A stretch of DNA of 20,708 nt from a virus, in IMG/VR virus record IMGVR_UViG_3300036846_000467, positions 1 to 20,708 of that record. One strand, written 5' to 3'. The position numbers and the translations under genes were made by a program. How positions within the stretch are numbered: the first letter of the stretch is position 1; the number at the start of each line of letters is the position of its first letter. A model generated the notes under the pieces. The model saw only the letters and a list, made by a program, of their open reading frames with translations. It ran no database searches and was not told the DNA's origin. Of this stretch, positions 546 to 20,183 are shown piece by piece.

Positions 546-755
546 TCAACCGGCGGCGCCGCGTTGCGGCGTGGTCTCGGCGAGGTAACGGTCGAGGTCG
601 ACGCGCGCGATGCGAATATGCGGTTTGCGGGTACCGAGGCCGATACGTCGGGCGGCGAGGTCGCCGGCCTTGACGAGCGCGTACACGGTTTGGCGTGAGC
701 AGCGCATGAGCGCCGCGGCCTCGTCGACGGTTAGGTACGGGCTGCGTTCGACCAT
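546..755 (-). CDS. Excisionase-family helix-turn-helix protein (AlpA/HTH_17-like)
   Basis: This is a 69-aa DNA-binding protein. Residues 6-35 (PYLTVDEAAALMRCSRQTVYAL) form the winged HTH typical of the excisionase/AlpA family. A basic wing follows (GLGTRKPHIRIARVDLDRYL), which ends in the usual 'DLDRYL' helix. I chose ATG 755, which begins just before the conserved domain and has AAAGGGG upstream at reasonable spacing. An upstream ATG at 842 would add 29 arginine-rich residues that look non-coding. It is the first gene after a candidate promoter and precedes the nuclease. In a phage with an integrase and arm-type sites it could be the recombination directionality factor, or a regulator of the early operon. 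The sequence does not separate these roles. Confidence 0.85.
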   Translation of the reverse strand: MVERSPYLTVDEAAALMRCSRQTVYALVKAGDLAARRIGLGTRKPHIRIARVDLDRYLAETTPQRGAAG

Positions 756-898
756 GGCCGGCGCCCCTTTGTGCTCGAGTGCTATTCGCCCCGCCCCTCG
801 AGGTAACGGGCGCCGGATCGCTCGCGTACCTGCGCGATGCAACGTAAACCGTCGTTACCGACCTGTAAAGACAATTATGCGGGAATGACGCATCGCGC
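756..898 (-). promoter_or_regulatory. Intergenic control region with candidate early promoter and 9-bp inverted repeat
   Basis: This 143-bp gap separates the membrane gene from the HTH gene and is less GC-rich than its flanks. On the minus strand a TTTACA (869-864) lies 17 bases from TACGTT (846-841), a fair -35 match with a weaker -10, giving a leader of about 80 bases. A 9-bp inverted repeat, GCGCGATGC at 832-840 and GCATCGCGC at 890-898, brackets this promoter and could be an operator pair. The promoter is inferred from pattern only. Confidence 0.5.
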
Positions 899-1255
899 CT
901 AGTCGCCGGCCGATTGCGCTTCGCCGTCGCCGCGCTTACGCCAGCGCGCGCGGGTGATACCGGCGGCGGTGTCGCGCTCGAGCTCGGCCTGTAGCCATTG
1001 CTCCGGCGACAGGCGGCGCCGCTGCGCCTCGGCGAGGCCGTTCCATAGCTGCGCGCGCGCGGTGAGGTAGCCGGCCTGCCATGCGAGCCGCGAGGTACGT
1101 ACCGCCGAATACAGCGCGACCGCGAGCCAGGTCATGAGCAGCGCGTACCACCACTCGCCGACGACGAGGCCGACAACGGCGGCGCCGGCGAGCGCGACCG
1201 CGACCGTGAGCGCGAAGAGTTCCGACGTACGACGCGGCGGCGTCGGGAGCGTCAC
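899..1255 (-). CDS. Small membrane protein with two TM segments, downstream of integrase
   Basis: This 118-aa protein of unknown function starts at GTG 1255, overlapping the integrase stop by four bases (GTGA), so it is probably translationally coupled to integrase. Two hydrophobic segments sit near residues 13-32 (rich in Ala, Val and Gly) and 36-53 (WYALLMTWLAVALYSA). A charged cytosolic C-terminal half of about 65 residues follows, rich in Arg, Glu and Ala and probably helical. A membrane protein expressed with the integrase in a lysogen is a plausible superinfection-exclusion or lysogenic-conversion factor. That is context-based inference; no family is recognised. Confidence 0.78.
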   Translation of the reverse strand: MTLPTPPRRTSELFALTVAVALAGAAVVGLVVGEWWYALLMTWLAVALYSAVRTSRLAWQAGYLTARAQLWNGLAEAQRRRLSPEQWLQAELERDTAAGITRARWRKRGDGEAQSAGD

Positions 1256-2484
1256 GCCGGCGCCTTGCGTTTGCTCGTGATCGCCTGCCAGGTCTCGGCG
1301 AGGACGGGTACCGCCGGGTCGGCGAGGTTGGCGCGATGGTGCGAATACACGTCATGGAACATGCGGTTTGACGCGTGGCCGGTGCGGTGCGTCGCGTCGG
1401 TAACCGCGATGCCGCCGGCGGTCATTTCCGACGCGTTGACGTGCCGCAGATCATGAAATTTGAGCTCAACGCCGGCCGCGTCGGCGGCGCGGCGCCACCG
1501 CGCCGAGAGCGCCGCCGGCGACGTGTAGCCGCGCTCGAGCTCGAGCGAGAAAACGGCGCATTCCTCGAGGCCGGCGACGTCGACGCCGGCGGCCTCGGCG
1601 AGCTCGGCCTGCCGCTCGTAGCGAGCGACGAGCATCGCTCGGCATTCGTCGTCGATCGCGACGGCGCGCTTGCCGCCCTTGTTCGCCGCGATCGGTTTGC
1701 GGTGCCAGCCGTTCGCCTTGCCGCGCCGGTTGCGCGATACCGACGCGTAGAACGTGACCGAGCCGTCGAGTAGTTCTACGTCGCGCCAGCGCAGGCCGGC
1801 GAGCTCGCCCTCGCGCGCGCCGGTCGCGACGGCGGCCTGTACCAAATCTTCGAGCTCGCGTACGTAGCCGGCGTGGTCGTAGGCCTTGGCCTTGTCGCCC
1901 TTGCCGGCCGGCCGAGGTCGCGCCGCGACGTCGAGGACGCGCGCGATATCGGCGAGGTCGTAGTCATCGGCCGCGCTCGGCGCCTGCGGCGTGCCGACCT
2001 CGACCTCGAGGTCGCGGCACGGATTGGCCGTGATCCAGTGATTTCGCTTCGCGATGCGCAGCGAGCGCGAGAGCACGCCGTGAATCTTGACGACGGTACG
2101 CCGCGATTTCGGGCCGGGCTTGCGGGCCGGCGAATGCTTGCCGGCGGCGACCTCGGCGTAGAAACGGTCGAGCGTGGCCTCGTCGAGCCGGTCGAGCTCG
2201 ACCTTGCCGAGCCAGGTCGGCGCGACGTACGTGTCACGCGTCGACCACATCGTCGCCTCGTAGGTCGGCGCCTTGCCGGCCGCCTTGGTCTCGAGGTAGT
2301 GGTCGACCGCGTCGAGGACGGTACGCCGGTGCGCGCCCTTGCCGCCGCGCCGGTAGCGGGCCTCGAGTGCCTTGGCCTCGTCGCGAGTATCCACAACGCG
2401 GACGATGCGTTCACGGTCGGGGCCGCGGCCGCCGACGTCGACGCGGACCTTAAATCGGCCGTTGGGCTGCTGCTCGATTGCCAT
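1252..2484 (-). CDS. int: Tyrosine integrase (site-specific recombinase)
   Basis: This 410-aa tyrosine recombinase integrates the phage at attB, here predicted to be a tRNA-Cys gene. Residues 1-50 form an arm-binding domain (IEQQPNGRFKVRVDVGG). Residues 52-160 are the SAM-like core-binding domain, and about 175-400 the catalytic domain. The catalytic set is visible: Arg224 in ATGAREGELAGLRW, His344 and Arg347 in FHDLRH, His370 in RTGHAS and nucleophile Tyr380 in DVYSHH. Start ATG 2484 has AAAAGGA nine bases upstream. The longer frame to 2610 would translate the arm-site repeats and is rejected. The length is normal for actinophage integrases and the gene appears intact. attP lies directly upstream. 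Confidence 0.97.
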   Translation of the reverse strand: MAIEQQPNGRFKVRVDVGGRGPDRERIVRVVDTRDEAKALEARYRRGGKGAHRRTVLDAVDHYLETKAAGKAPTYEATMWSTRDTYVAPTWLGKVELDRLDEATLDRFYAEVAAGKHSPARKPGPKSRRTVVKIHGVLSRSLRIAKRNHWITANPCRDLEVEVGTPQAPSAADDYDLADIARVLDVAARPRPAGKGDKAKAYDHAGYVRELEDLVQAAVATGAREGELAGLRWRDVELLDGSVTFYASVSRNRRGKANGWHRKPIAANKGGKRAVAIDDECRAMLVARYERQAELAEAAGVDVAGLEECAVFSLELERGYTSPAALSARWRRAADAAGVELKFHDLRHVNASEMTAGGIAVTDATHRTGHASNRMFHDVYSHHRANLADPAVPVLAETWQAITSKRKAPA

Positions 2485-2508: not shown

Positions 2509-2544
2509 GGGTGTCACGCGTTCGGGTGTCACGCCGGGTGTCAC
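2509..2544 (+). repeat. Three direct copies of GGGTGTCAC (integrase-proximal arm sites)
   Basis: GGGTGTCAC occurs at 2509-2517, 2524-2532 and 2536-2544, all in the same orientation, between the integrase start and the tRNA-like core. Two more copies lie on the other side of the core. A degenerate GGTGTC follows at 2490-2495. Clustered same-orientation repeats on both sides of a core are what arm-type sites of a tyrosine integrase look like. Binding by this integrase is inferred. Confidence 0.72.
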
Positions 2545-2647: not shown

Positions 2648-2689
2648 CTGCAAAGCCTTTTACGTCGGTTCGATTCCGACCGCCGCCTC
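2648..2689 (+). other. attP: attP core: 3' half of a tRNA-Cys gene
   Basis: On the plus strand there is a tRNA-Cys anticodon loop CTGCAAA (2648-2654, anticodon GCA) and a perfect T-arm, GTCGG-TTCGATT-CCGAC (2664-2680). An acceptor 3' strand CGCCGCC (2681-2687) follows, then T at 2688, matching the U73 discriminator typical of tRNA-Cys. The 5' half is absent: the bases before the loop do not pair into an anticodon stem, and no GGCGGCG acceptor 5' strand is found. This is how an attP carrying the end of its target tRNA looks. It is beside the integrase and flanked by arm-type repeats. Confidence 0.85.
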
Positions 2690-2691
2690 GT

Positions 2692-2722
2692 CGAAAACCG
2701 CCGATTCTGTCGGCGGTTTTCG
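2692..2722. terminator. Strong hairpin beside attP core, candidate bidirectional terminator
   Basis: A perfect 13-bp inverted repeat (arms 2692-2704 and 2710-2722, loop TTCTG) starts with CGAAAA and ends with TTTTCG, so each strand has a T-run within the distal stem. It begins three bases after the tRNA-like core. It may therefore be the original terminator of the host tRNA carried in the common core, or a phage terminator between the lysis and integrase units. Confidence 0.65.
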
Positions 2723-2751: not shown

Positions 2752-2772
2752 GGGTGTCACGGCGGGTGTCAC
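2752..2772 (+). repeat. Two direct copies of GGGTGTCAC (distal arm sites)
   Basis: GGGTGTCAC occurs at 2752-2760 and 2764-2772, in the same orientation and with the same 12-base spacing as one integrase-side pair. With that set they place arm-type sites on both sides of the attP core, about 63 bp from its 3' end here. Confidence 0.72.
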
Positions 2773-2868: not shown

Positions 2869-2955
2869 CTAGTCGCGGCCTATCCACAGCACGAGCGCGA
2901 CGTATCCGAGCAGCGCCAGCGCCAGCGCCACGGCGAGGATTTCGTACCGCGTCAA
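2869..2955 (-). CDS. 28-aa single-pass membrane peptide at end of lysis cassette
   Basis: A short ORF starts with TTG at 2955, overlapping the holin stop (TTGA), and ends at TAG 2869. The product is MTRYEI followed by a continuous hydrophobic stretch of about 19 residues (LAVALALALLGYVALVLWI) and a short charged tail. A two-residue-period Leu-Ala stretch comes from a small GGCGCT repeat in the DNA. The coupled start, the full-length TM segment and the place after the holin suggest a second holin, antiholin or other lysis accessory. No family is recognised, and the TTG start makes the call tentative. Confidence 0.5.
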   Translation of the reverse strand: MTRYEILAVALALALLGYVALVLWIGRD

Positions 2956-3137
2956 TGCCAGAGAAACGCCAACACGAGGCCGAGCAGGCCGAGCGAAACG
3001 AGGCCGCGATACAGCTCGCGCGCCATGCCGGCGACGATCGCGGCCACGCCGAATAGCACGGCGGCGACGATCAGGTACACGAGGTCGGCGCCGGCGGGCT
3101 TATTCGCCAGGTAGCCGACGAGCTCGGCGGCGGTCAT
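2952..3137 (-). CDS. Holin-like protein, two TM segments
   Basis: This 61-aa protein should form holes in the cytoplasmic membrane at the end of infection and release or activate the endolysin. It has a short polar N-terminus, TM1 near residues 19-39 (LVYLIVAAVLFGVAAIVAGMA), a charged turn (RELYRG) and TM2 near 45-60 (LVSLGLLGLVLAFLW). Size, topology and position immediately after the amidase fit a class II-type holin. Start ATG 3137 overlaps the amidase stop (ATGA); an ATG two codons upstream (3143) is also possible. Assignment rests on topology and context, since holins share little sequence. Confidence 0.78.
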   Translation of the reverse strand: MTAAELVGYLANKPAGADLVYLIVAAVLFGVAAIVAGMARELYRGLVSLGLLGLVLAFLWH

Positions 3138-3970
3138 GACCACTCGAGCAGGTACGTACCGACCACGTTGTCGCCGAGGTCGTACAGCGCGACTACGCCG
3201 CGGCCGTCCGGGCGGCCGTTGCCGTCGACGGTCGCCGCGATATCGACGAGCCGGTTACCGGCGGCCATGACGCCGGCGTCGGTCGAGAGCCATACCCGAT
3301 TGGCGCCGCTCGCCTTGTCGCCGCGCAGCGCGGCGCCGTTCTCGAGCAGGATGCAGCCGAGCTCGGGTACCGGCCGAGCGGTCGGTGTACGGCCGGCGGG
3401 CTTACCGGCCTGCGGGCTTGCCACGGTTGTCAAGAGACCACCTCCGGCGGTCGAGGCCGGCGGCGAGCTCGGCGAGCTCGAGCCGGCGCGGCGGTTGATT
3501 TCGGATATCTGCTCGATGAGGTACCGGCCACAACACGCGGTCGCGTTGCCGGACGCGTCGCGGTGCGGGCCGGTAATCGAGGCCGGCCAGTAGCCGGCGC
3601 CGTTCCCCCACGCGACGAGCTCGGCGAGGACGTCGAGCAGCATCGAGCTCGGCCGATCGGTCTCGAAATTGCCCATGACGCATAGCGCGTGTGATCGCTC
3701 GTTATGGTCCGCGGTCGCGGCGGTGTTGCGGCCTGGTCCTCGAGACTCGAAAACGGTCGGCGTCGGATTGTCGACGACGTACGAATACTCGAGGTCGACG
3801 TACCCGCCGGCGAGCGCGCCGGCCTGTAGTTGCCGCATACCGCCGGCGCCATGCAGGCCGGTCGAGCCGGTGTGATGTAGCCACAATTCCGGGCTCGGCG
3901 TCGCGATCGCGCTCGCCGGCGTGACGAGCGGATTCGCGCCCCACGCGGCGCGGGTGACGATGGTCGGCAT
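3134..3970 (-). CDS. Endolysin: N-acetylmuramoyl-L-alanine amidase (Amidase_2/PGRP fold)
   Basis: This 278-aa lysin cuts the bond between MurNAc and the stem peptide of the host wall. The N-terminal catalytic domain is residues 1-160. TRAAWGA is the usual opening and LWLHHTGS carries the first zinc His (32 or 33). GPHRDASGNATACCGR carries His136 and Cys146 or Cys147, the other expected ligands. A Ser/Pro/Ala/Gly linker spans about 163-200. A C-terminal domain of about 75 residues (204-278) ends GTYLLEWS; it is unrecognised and may bind cell wall. The start ATG shares one base with the preceding stop (TAATG). There is no signal peptide, so export should depend on the adjacent holin. Confidence 0.92.
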   Translation of the reverse strand: MPTIVTRAAWGANPLVTPASAIATPSPELWLHHTGSTGLHGAGGMRQLQAGALAGGYVDLEYSYVVDNPTPTVFESRGPGRNTAATADHNERSHALCVMGNFETDRPSSMLLDVLAELVAWGNGAGYWPASITGPHRDASGNATACCGRYLIEQISEINRRAGSSSPSSPPASTAGGGLLTTVASPQAGKPAGRTPTARPVPELGCILLENGAALRGDKASGANRVWLSTDAGVMAAGNRLVDIAATVDGNGRPDGRGVVALYDLGDNVVGTYLLEWS

Positions 3971-4098
3971 TATTCGCCGTCGTCGCCGACGTCGGTCTCG
4001 CCGACGCCGGTCTCGCTCGAGTGTTCCGACGTTTCGCCGGGCTCGGCGTCGTCGATGCCCTCGTCGCCGGCGGTCGTATCGGGTTCGGTCGGTGTCAT
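3970..4098 (-). CDS. Short acidic protein between receptor-binding protein and endolysin
   Basis: This 42-aa protein is almost entirely Glu, Asp, Thr, Gly and Ser, with repeated ETG/ETD and DDGE-like runs, so it is strongly acidic and probably disordered. The gene is well supported: a strong GAAGGAGG ribosome-binding site precedes ATG 4098, the start overlaps the upstream stop (ATGA), and its own stop overlaps the endolysin start. No function is recognised. Its place between tail-tip and lysis genes could suit a small virion, chaperone or charge-mimic role, but nothing in the sequence decides this. Confidence 0.72.
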   Translation of the reverse strand: MTPTEPDTTAGDEGIDDAEPGETSEHSSETGVGETDVGDDGE

Positions 4099-19169: not shown

Positions 19170-20183
19170 TTACCTCTCGGTCTCGGTCTCGGTTTGCGGT
19201 TCGGCGGCGAGCGCGGCGGCCTCGGCGTCGGCGGCCTTGCGTTCGCCGAGCTCGCGCTCGAGCTCGTCGATGACGAGCGAGGCCTCGGCGAGCGTGAGGT
19301 CGGCCGAGCTCGGCACGGTACGGCCGACAACGTGCGTTGCGTAATCGGCGCGGTCGGCGCGCTCGGTAATGCCGTAGTCGCGGTACAGCGCGTGCAACTT
19401 GTTTTTTTGCGGTCGCGTGATCGCCGGCGGCGGCGCCGGCGCGGCGTCGGTAGTTTCCCCGGGCAACGGCGGTAGCGCCGGCGGCGGGTTCGCATCCATT
19501 CCCCCCGATGGTGCCGGTAGCACTACCGCCGCCGCCGGCGTCCGTCGCCGTCGCGTTACCCGCCGGTTTCCGGTAGCGGGCTTCGCGTCGACGCCGGCCG
19601 CGAGCTCGAGCTCGTCGGCGTCTTGCATTTCCTCGTACGCGGCGAGGCCGCCGGTGACGTCGGCGAATATGGCGCGTACGACGTCGGCCGATGAGCGCGC
19701 CGAGAGCATCTGCCGCGGATAGTTGCGGTAAGTCTGCTTGCCGGCGAGGTTGGCGCGGCTCGCGTCATCCATGGTCCAGCTAACGGTCGCGACGTGATCG
19801 GAGTCGCGCCGGCGGCCGCACCACGTCACGCGCGTAACCGTGAGCTCGTCCGGCCACATTTCATGACCGGCGGCGAGGACGAGCGCGCGTTGTGCCTCGG
19901 CGTACAGCGTCGGCGTACCGTCGATAATCCGAATGCTGCGTAGCGATTGCATCGGGCCTAGGCCGATTTCGTCGCCGTACAGAATGCAGGCCGTTATCGC
20001 CGGGACGTTGTTGCGCATCGAGCTCGTAACGAAATCGGTACCGGCGACCGCCTTCGCGAGCTCGGCGACCGGCGCCATGAGCTCGACCCATCGACCGAGC
20101 GCGGGCCGCTCGAGCATGGCCTCGCGGCCGCGGCCGTATTCGCCGGCGGCGCCGCGCGGCTCGAGCCGCATGAGCGAGCTCAT
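19170..20183 (-). CDS. recT: RecT-like single-strand annealing protein
   Basis: This 337-aa protein should coat the single strands made by the nuclease and anneal them to complementary DNA, giving recombination-dependent repair or replication. Residues about 30-185 hold the family core: ITACILYGDEIGLGPMQSLRS, then IIDGTPTLYAEAQRALVLAAGHE, ATVSWTMDDASRANLAGK, QTYRNYPRQMLSARS and VVRAIFADVTGGLAAYEEM. A Pro/Ala-rich linker (205-255) leads to a helical C-terminal domain (RPQKNKLHALYRDYGITER, then LTLAEASLVIDELE), also seen at the ends of related phage proteins. ATG 20183 overlaps the preceding stop (ATGA). Confidence 0.9.
   Translation of the reverse strand: MSSLMRLEPRGAAGEYGRGREAMLERPALGRWVELMAPVAELAKAVAGTDFVTSSMRNNVPAITACILYGDEIGLGPMQSLRSIRIIDGTPTLYAEAQRALVLAAGHEMWPDELTVTRVTWCGRRRDSDHVATVSWTMDDASRANLAGKQTYRNYPRQMLSARSSADVVRAIFADVTGGLAAYEEMQDADELELAAGVDAKPATGNRRVTRRRRTPAAAVVLPAPSGGMDANPPPALPPLPGETTDAAPAPPPAITRPQKNKLHALYRDYGITERADRADYATHVVGRTVPSSADLTLAEASLVIDELERELGERKAADAEAAALAAEPQTETETER

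Follow-up and report, generated by a model that had tools for sequence, protein, structure and literature searches.

A probable phage attachment site carrying the 3' half of a tRNA-Cys(GCA) gene in a small temperate siphophage of the Actinomycetota

Here, a 42-base segment of a linear virus record (20,708 bases, analysed in full and referred to as the window) is identified, with high confidence, as the core of the attP of a small temperate siphophage that would integrate into the tRNA-Cys(GCA) gene of a host belonging to the Actinomycetota. The region has the make-up of a tRNA-targeting attP of a tyrosine integrase: the core begins 164 bp upstream of an integrase gene whose PF00589 match is over the cut-off, it is a tRNA 3' fragment that is able to rebuild the gene according to ARAGORN calls on hybrids, putative arm-type repeats stand on both sides (three left and two right), and phage DNA flanks it in either direction. 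Furthermore, the shared sequence starts at C32 in the window, in three other phages and in two integrated elements, which is the form of an A-type (anticodon-loop) site. The attP marks a metagenomic phage lineage as probably temperate, supplies its integration target and offers a lead, open to testing, towards an actinobacterial host that is uncultured. The features are collected in Table 1.

Table 1. Features of the putative attP region and its neighbouring genes (positions in the window)
Feature	Position	Strand	Basis
Putative excisionase / recombination directionality factor, HTH_17	546-815	-	PF12728, E=6.3e-15; PHROG 66 and 2907, excisionase
Tyrosine integrase, 410 aa, RHRHY-type catalytic domain	1252-2484	-	Pfam PF00589, E=1.2e-13, over cut-off; PHROG 1 integrase, E=1.1e-39
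Putative arm-type site P1, GGGTGTCAC	2509-2517	+	Repeat scan; L003 has GGGTGGCAC at the same offset
Putative arm-type site P2, GGGTGTCAC	2524-2532	+	Repeat scan
Putative arm-type site P3, GGGTGTCAC	2536-2544	+	Repeat scan
attP core (probable): tRNA-Cys(GCA) 3' half	2648-2689	+	Direct reading; ARAGORN; T-arm scan; near-identity to complete tRNA-Cys genes
Anticodon loop CTGCAAA, proposed 7-bp strand-exchange (overlap) region	2648-2654	+	Shared start in four phages and two integrated elements; cleavage positions predicted
Anticodon stem, 3' strand, GCCTT	2655-2659	+	Direct reading
Variable loop TTAC, four bases	2660-2663	+	Direct reading
T-stem strands GTCGG and CCGAC	2664-2668, 2676-2680	+	Direct reading; T-arm perfect
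T-loop TTCGATT	2669-2675	+	Direct reading
Acceptor, 3' strand, CGCCGCC	2681-2687	+	Direct reading
U73 (T), then a single extra C	2688, 2689	+	Direct reading
Perfect 13-bp inverted repeat, arms 2692-2704 and 2710-2722	2692-2722		Inverted-repeat scan; fold z-score -4.97; compensatory change in L003
Putative arm-type site P'1, GGGTGTCAC	2752-2760	+	Repeat scan
Putative arm-type site P'2, GGGTGTCAC	2764-2772	+	Repeat scan
Small membrane protein, possible holin, right flank of attP	2952-3143	-	ORF only, without family match
Endolysin (amidase)	3134-3976	-	PHROG 1493 endolysin, E=1.2e-15

In tRNA numbering, the core runs from C32 to U73 of a tRNA-Cys(GCA) gene, its 3' half, with one base more, and an earlier note, made from the letters of the window, had described the same anticodon loop, perfect T-arm, acceptor strand and U73, all of which are confirmed by direct reading. 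The missing 5' half reported there is likewise borne out, as the CTCGGA just upstream of the core cannot pair with the GCCTT of the anticodon stem and ARAGORN finds no tRNA gene anywhere in the 20,708 bases; a full tRNA structure in this region, the finding that would have spoken against the note, is absent by the same test. An Rfam scan of the window at E<=1 returned no match. A T-arm scan of both strands over the whole window gave one match, the fragment itself, and its 26-base T-arm and acceptor string occurs at eight sites in 84,980 species genomes, seven of them complete tRNA-Cys(GCA) genes and the eighth another tRNA-Cys 3' half; taken together, these counts argue that the fragment is not a chance resemblance. 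That it is instead a decayed phage-encoded tRNA-Cys gene, which lost its 5' half and has no role in integration, would fit with the frequency of tRNA genes in phages and with the presence of only a half here, but the T-arm, acceptor strand and U73 are intact and without decay, the C32 start, neighbouring integrase and flanking repeats recur in four phages, and C32 is also where integrated elements interrupt tRNA-Cys, so that this explanation is extremely improbable and was rejected.

The gene content on the two sides of the core is that of a phage. The left side has the integrase gene and the excisionase-like gene; on the right come the endolysin gene and then the tail, head, portal and terminase genes, every one of them minus-strand. 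The integrase-side junction of an integrated prophage would likewise show a solitary tRNA 3' half, and the contig could in principle have been assembled across such an attL or attR; however, the phage genes to the left and right of the core indicate attP rather than a prophage junction, and the closest relative of the window, phage L003, aligns with it on both sides of the core. The junction explanation was accordingly rejected as very improbable. The terminase is closest to those of small Gordonia and Rhodococcus phages, with other matches mostly to Arthrobacter, Mycobacterium and Gordonia phages, which supports an actinobacterial host, and a megablast search of the whole window against phages gave no match. 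A gene for a RecT-like annealing protein (PHROG 4171, E=9e-43) was also seen at 19170-20183, the phage record being just ~21 kb long.

The same tRNA-Cys half is found beside integrase genes in three other soil phages (L003, L007 and L078), in each of which it begins at C32. Their integrases are 82% (L003) and 47% (L007) identical to that of the window, and the fragment itself varies, reading GCCTTTTACGTCGG in the window, ACCTCGTACGTCGG in L003, ACCTCCTACGTCGG in L007 and ACCTTTCACGCGGG in L078. The proposal of the earlier note that this is an attP with the 3' half of tRNA-Cys(GCA) is upheld by this common arrangement, by the adjoining integrase gene and repeat array with phage genes on both sides, and by elements of the Actinomycetota that split tRNA-Cys at the same base. 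Within this phage group the integration target varies and the integration module is exchanged. In phages L071, L072 and L073, which have related terminases, the integrase gene is accompanied by the 3' end of a different tRNA; by eye, L071 has a Pro(GGG)-like fragment (3121-3164) starting at its anticodon loop, and L072 (minus strand, near 1557) and L073 (4907-4950) have Ile-like fragments whose T-stems differ by a compensatory pair.

In two Actinomycetota genomes, G096 and G430, unrelated integrated elements have duplicated tRNA-Cys from exactly CTGCAAA (C32), and these elements confirm the target type. In G096, the element spans 9.1 kb from a complete tRNA-Cys gene to a second copy of the 3' half, 45 bases long and starting at CTGCAAA, and has an integrase gene inside; this element (L081, G096:C57:109000-124000), in which integrase, DnaB-like and terminase-like genes were named by eye, may be a phage satellite, or else a prophage that has lost part of its DNA. 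In G430, which belongs to the same class as the Acidimicrobiaceae metagenome-assembled genome (MAG) L014, a complete tRNA-Cys gene and a copy of its 3' half stand 2.8 kb apart (L084 and L085, G430:C86:7013-9898), which is probably an integrated element, either very short or decayed.

The nine-base GGGTGTCAC occurs as five identical direct copies inside 264 bases around the core and nowhere else in the window on either strand, against a first-order Markov expectation of ~0.04 per strand for the whole window. A control in which any repeated 8-mer near the core was allowed gave more modest support, five copies being reached in 6 of 300 local dinucleotide shuffles. These repeats look like integrase arm sites, and the comparison with L003 is stronger support for this than the copy-number statistics: L003 has five repeats at identical offsets, and all five read GGGTGGCAC. 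Meanwhile, the 55 N-terminal residues of the integrase are its least conserved part between the two phages (64% identity, compared with 91% over residues 56-150 and 82% over the rest), as would be expected if the integrase N-terminus reads the arm sites. The window and L003 make a clean natural example of putative arm sites and the integrase arm-binding region changing in concert.

Directly after the tRNA end lies a hairpin that folds far better than shuffled sequences, and in L003 one stem pair is swapped on both arms (CCGCCGA/TCGGCGG to CCTCCGA/TCGGAGG) with pairing kept. A consensus pattern scan for intrinsic terminators did not accept the hairpin, because its T run is short (four bases) and inside the stem. 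The hairpin is nevertheless probably a two-way terminator or insulator, a role made likely by its position between a rebuilt tRNA gene and the late operon that would converge on it, and a putative stem-loop terminator has been described in the same place in the Cluster K phage CrimD (PMC3203893).

The orientation of the junctions follows from these sequences, and the recombination itself can be proposed as follows. The N-terminal domain of the integrase would bind the GGGTGTCAC sites on both sides of the core, and strand exchange would take place inside the anticodon-loop segment CTGCAAA, such that integration joins the 5' half of the host gene to the 3' half borne by the phage. The attL, on the lysis-gene side, would then carry an intact tRNA-Cys gene, while the host's own 3' half would be displaced to the opposite junction, next to int; the hairpin after the rebuilt gene would probably stop transcription between the tRNA and the late operon. 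A different outcome, in which integration breaks tRNA-Cys and a phage tRNA serves as the replacement, is known from actinobacteriophages with tRNA-dependent lysogeny (PMC10865867), but those phages share ~10 bp with attB and encode a tRNA, whereas the window holds the whole 3' half and no tRNA gene. Neither the short, non-rebuilding core nor the phage tRNA of the same kind is present in the window, and this explanation was rejected as exceedingly unlikely.

The earlier note had further argued that the fragment must match the host exactly and could serve as a barcode for finding it, and this claim stands in part: the fragment indicates the Actinomycetota, and probably the Acidimicrobiia, but it names no host, and the need for an exact match is not supported. 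The exact 41-base string is absent from 84,980 species genomes, and the exact 42-mer was not found in viral contigs, in a scan that excluded the record of the window itself. The suggested search of actinobacterial tRNA-Cys genes for the exact string found none, the nearest genes having three mismatches and belonging to the Acidimicrobiia, and no integrated copy of the window phage was found next to a tRNA-Cys gene in the genomes searched. Pattern searches allowing two to three mismatches in phylum and class samples of the Actinomycetota recovered nothing closer than three, the best matches coming from a 395-genome sample of the class to which the Acidimicrobiaceae MAG L014 belongs; in this sample, the CTTTTACG stretch of the window recurs in two genomes, both from the same small order. 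Searches of three small other classes and one family gave no match. The T-arm and acceptor of the fragment recur in complete tRNA-Cys genes of three MAGs labelled Actinomycetes, Acidimicrobiales and Acidimicrobiaceae, as well as of Poribacteria and Omnitrophota.

The demand for exactness is also at odds with the closest phage relatives, which differ inside the fragment, and with hybrids of acidimicrobial 5' halves and the 3' half of the window, which ARAGORN calls as tRNA-Cys with G-U pairs in the anticodon stem. Since these hybrids still fold, a plausible tRNA does not require the whole fragment to match exactly, and K1 phages integrate into Mycobacterium tuberculosis even though one base differs (PMC3203893). 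The string is probably best taken as a class-level hint towards Acidimicrobiia-like hosts rather than a name; the host may be unsampled, and its complete tRNA-Cys(GCA) gene is to be recognised by the ending CTGCAAAGCCTTTTACGTCGGTTCGATTCCGACCGCCGCCT. A tRNA-Cys 3' half standing alone was also seen at 3806-3850 of L012, a contig of a Pirellulales MAG, followed at once by a hairpin and with the integrase motif HDLRHT ~1 kb away; it is either an element end or a binning error, and a complete tRNA-Cys gene is present in L009, an Acidimicrobiales MAG whose isolate name is similar. A wider proposal, that these small soil phages form a lineage tied to uncultured Acidimicrobiia in which the integrase N-terminal domain and all five arm sites switched specificity together while the tRNA-Cys target stayed constant, is possible and is offered tentatively.

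The use of attP-tRNA identity to assign hosts to metagenomic phages is an established method, and the barcode reasoning follows it, but the exact matches of 39-42 bp on which those assignments were built (PMC3861242, PMC5831537) have no counterpart among the genomes searched for the window. In its crossover at the anticodon loop, its element-borne 3' fragment and the rebuilding of the tRNA, the proposed site is like the 'anticodon-centred' (A-type) sites of Islander (PMC4383910), although the entries there are integrated islands and the window holds the free attP of a metagenomic phage. Strand exchange of the proposed kind is common among actinobacteriophages, whose cores of 30-45 bp take in the 3' half of the tRNA and restore the gene at one junction (PMC10865867; PMC4383910), and the window resembles the attP of L5, Tweety, Pixie and Cluster K1 phages, in which a core of that length corresponds to the 3' portion of a tRNA or tmRNA (PMC3203893, PMC10865867). 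As in the tyrosine-integrase attP of mycobacteriophages and other actinobacteriophages, the core lies on the 5' side of int, and arm-type repeats in direct orientation on both sides are shared with L5, Giles and, mostly, Pixie. It differs from those actinophages in its tRNA-Cys target, in an integrase that is only about 26% identical and in a host that is uncultured. In K1 phages, too, a stem-loop separates the core from the right arm sites, and the concerted change of arm sites and integrase is not new, as the arm consensus of Cluster K1 mycobacteriophages already shows a T-to-G shift at one position together with substitutions in the integrase N-terminus (PMC3203893). The design of this attP is the textbook one for actinobacteriophages, a clear and ordinary site.
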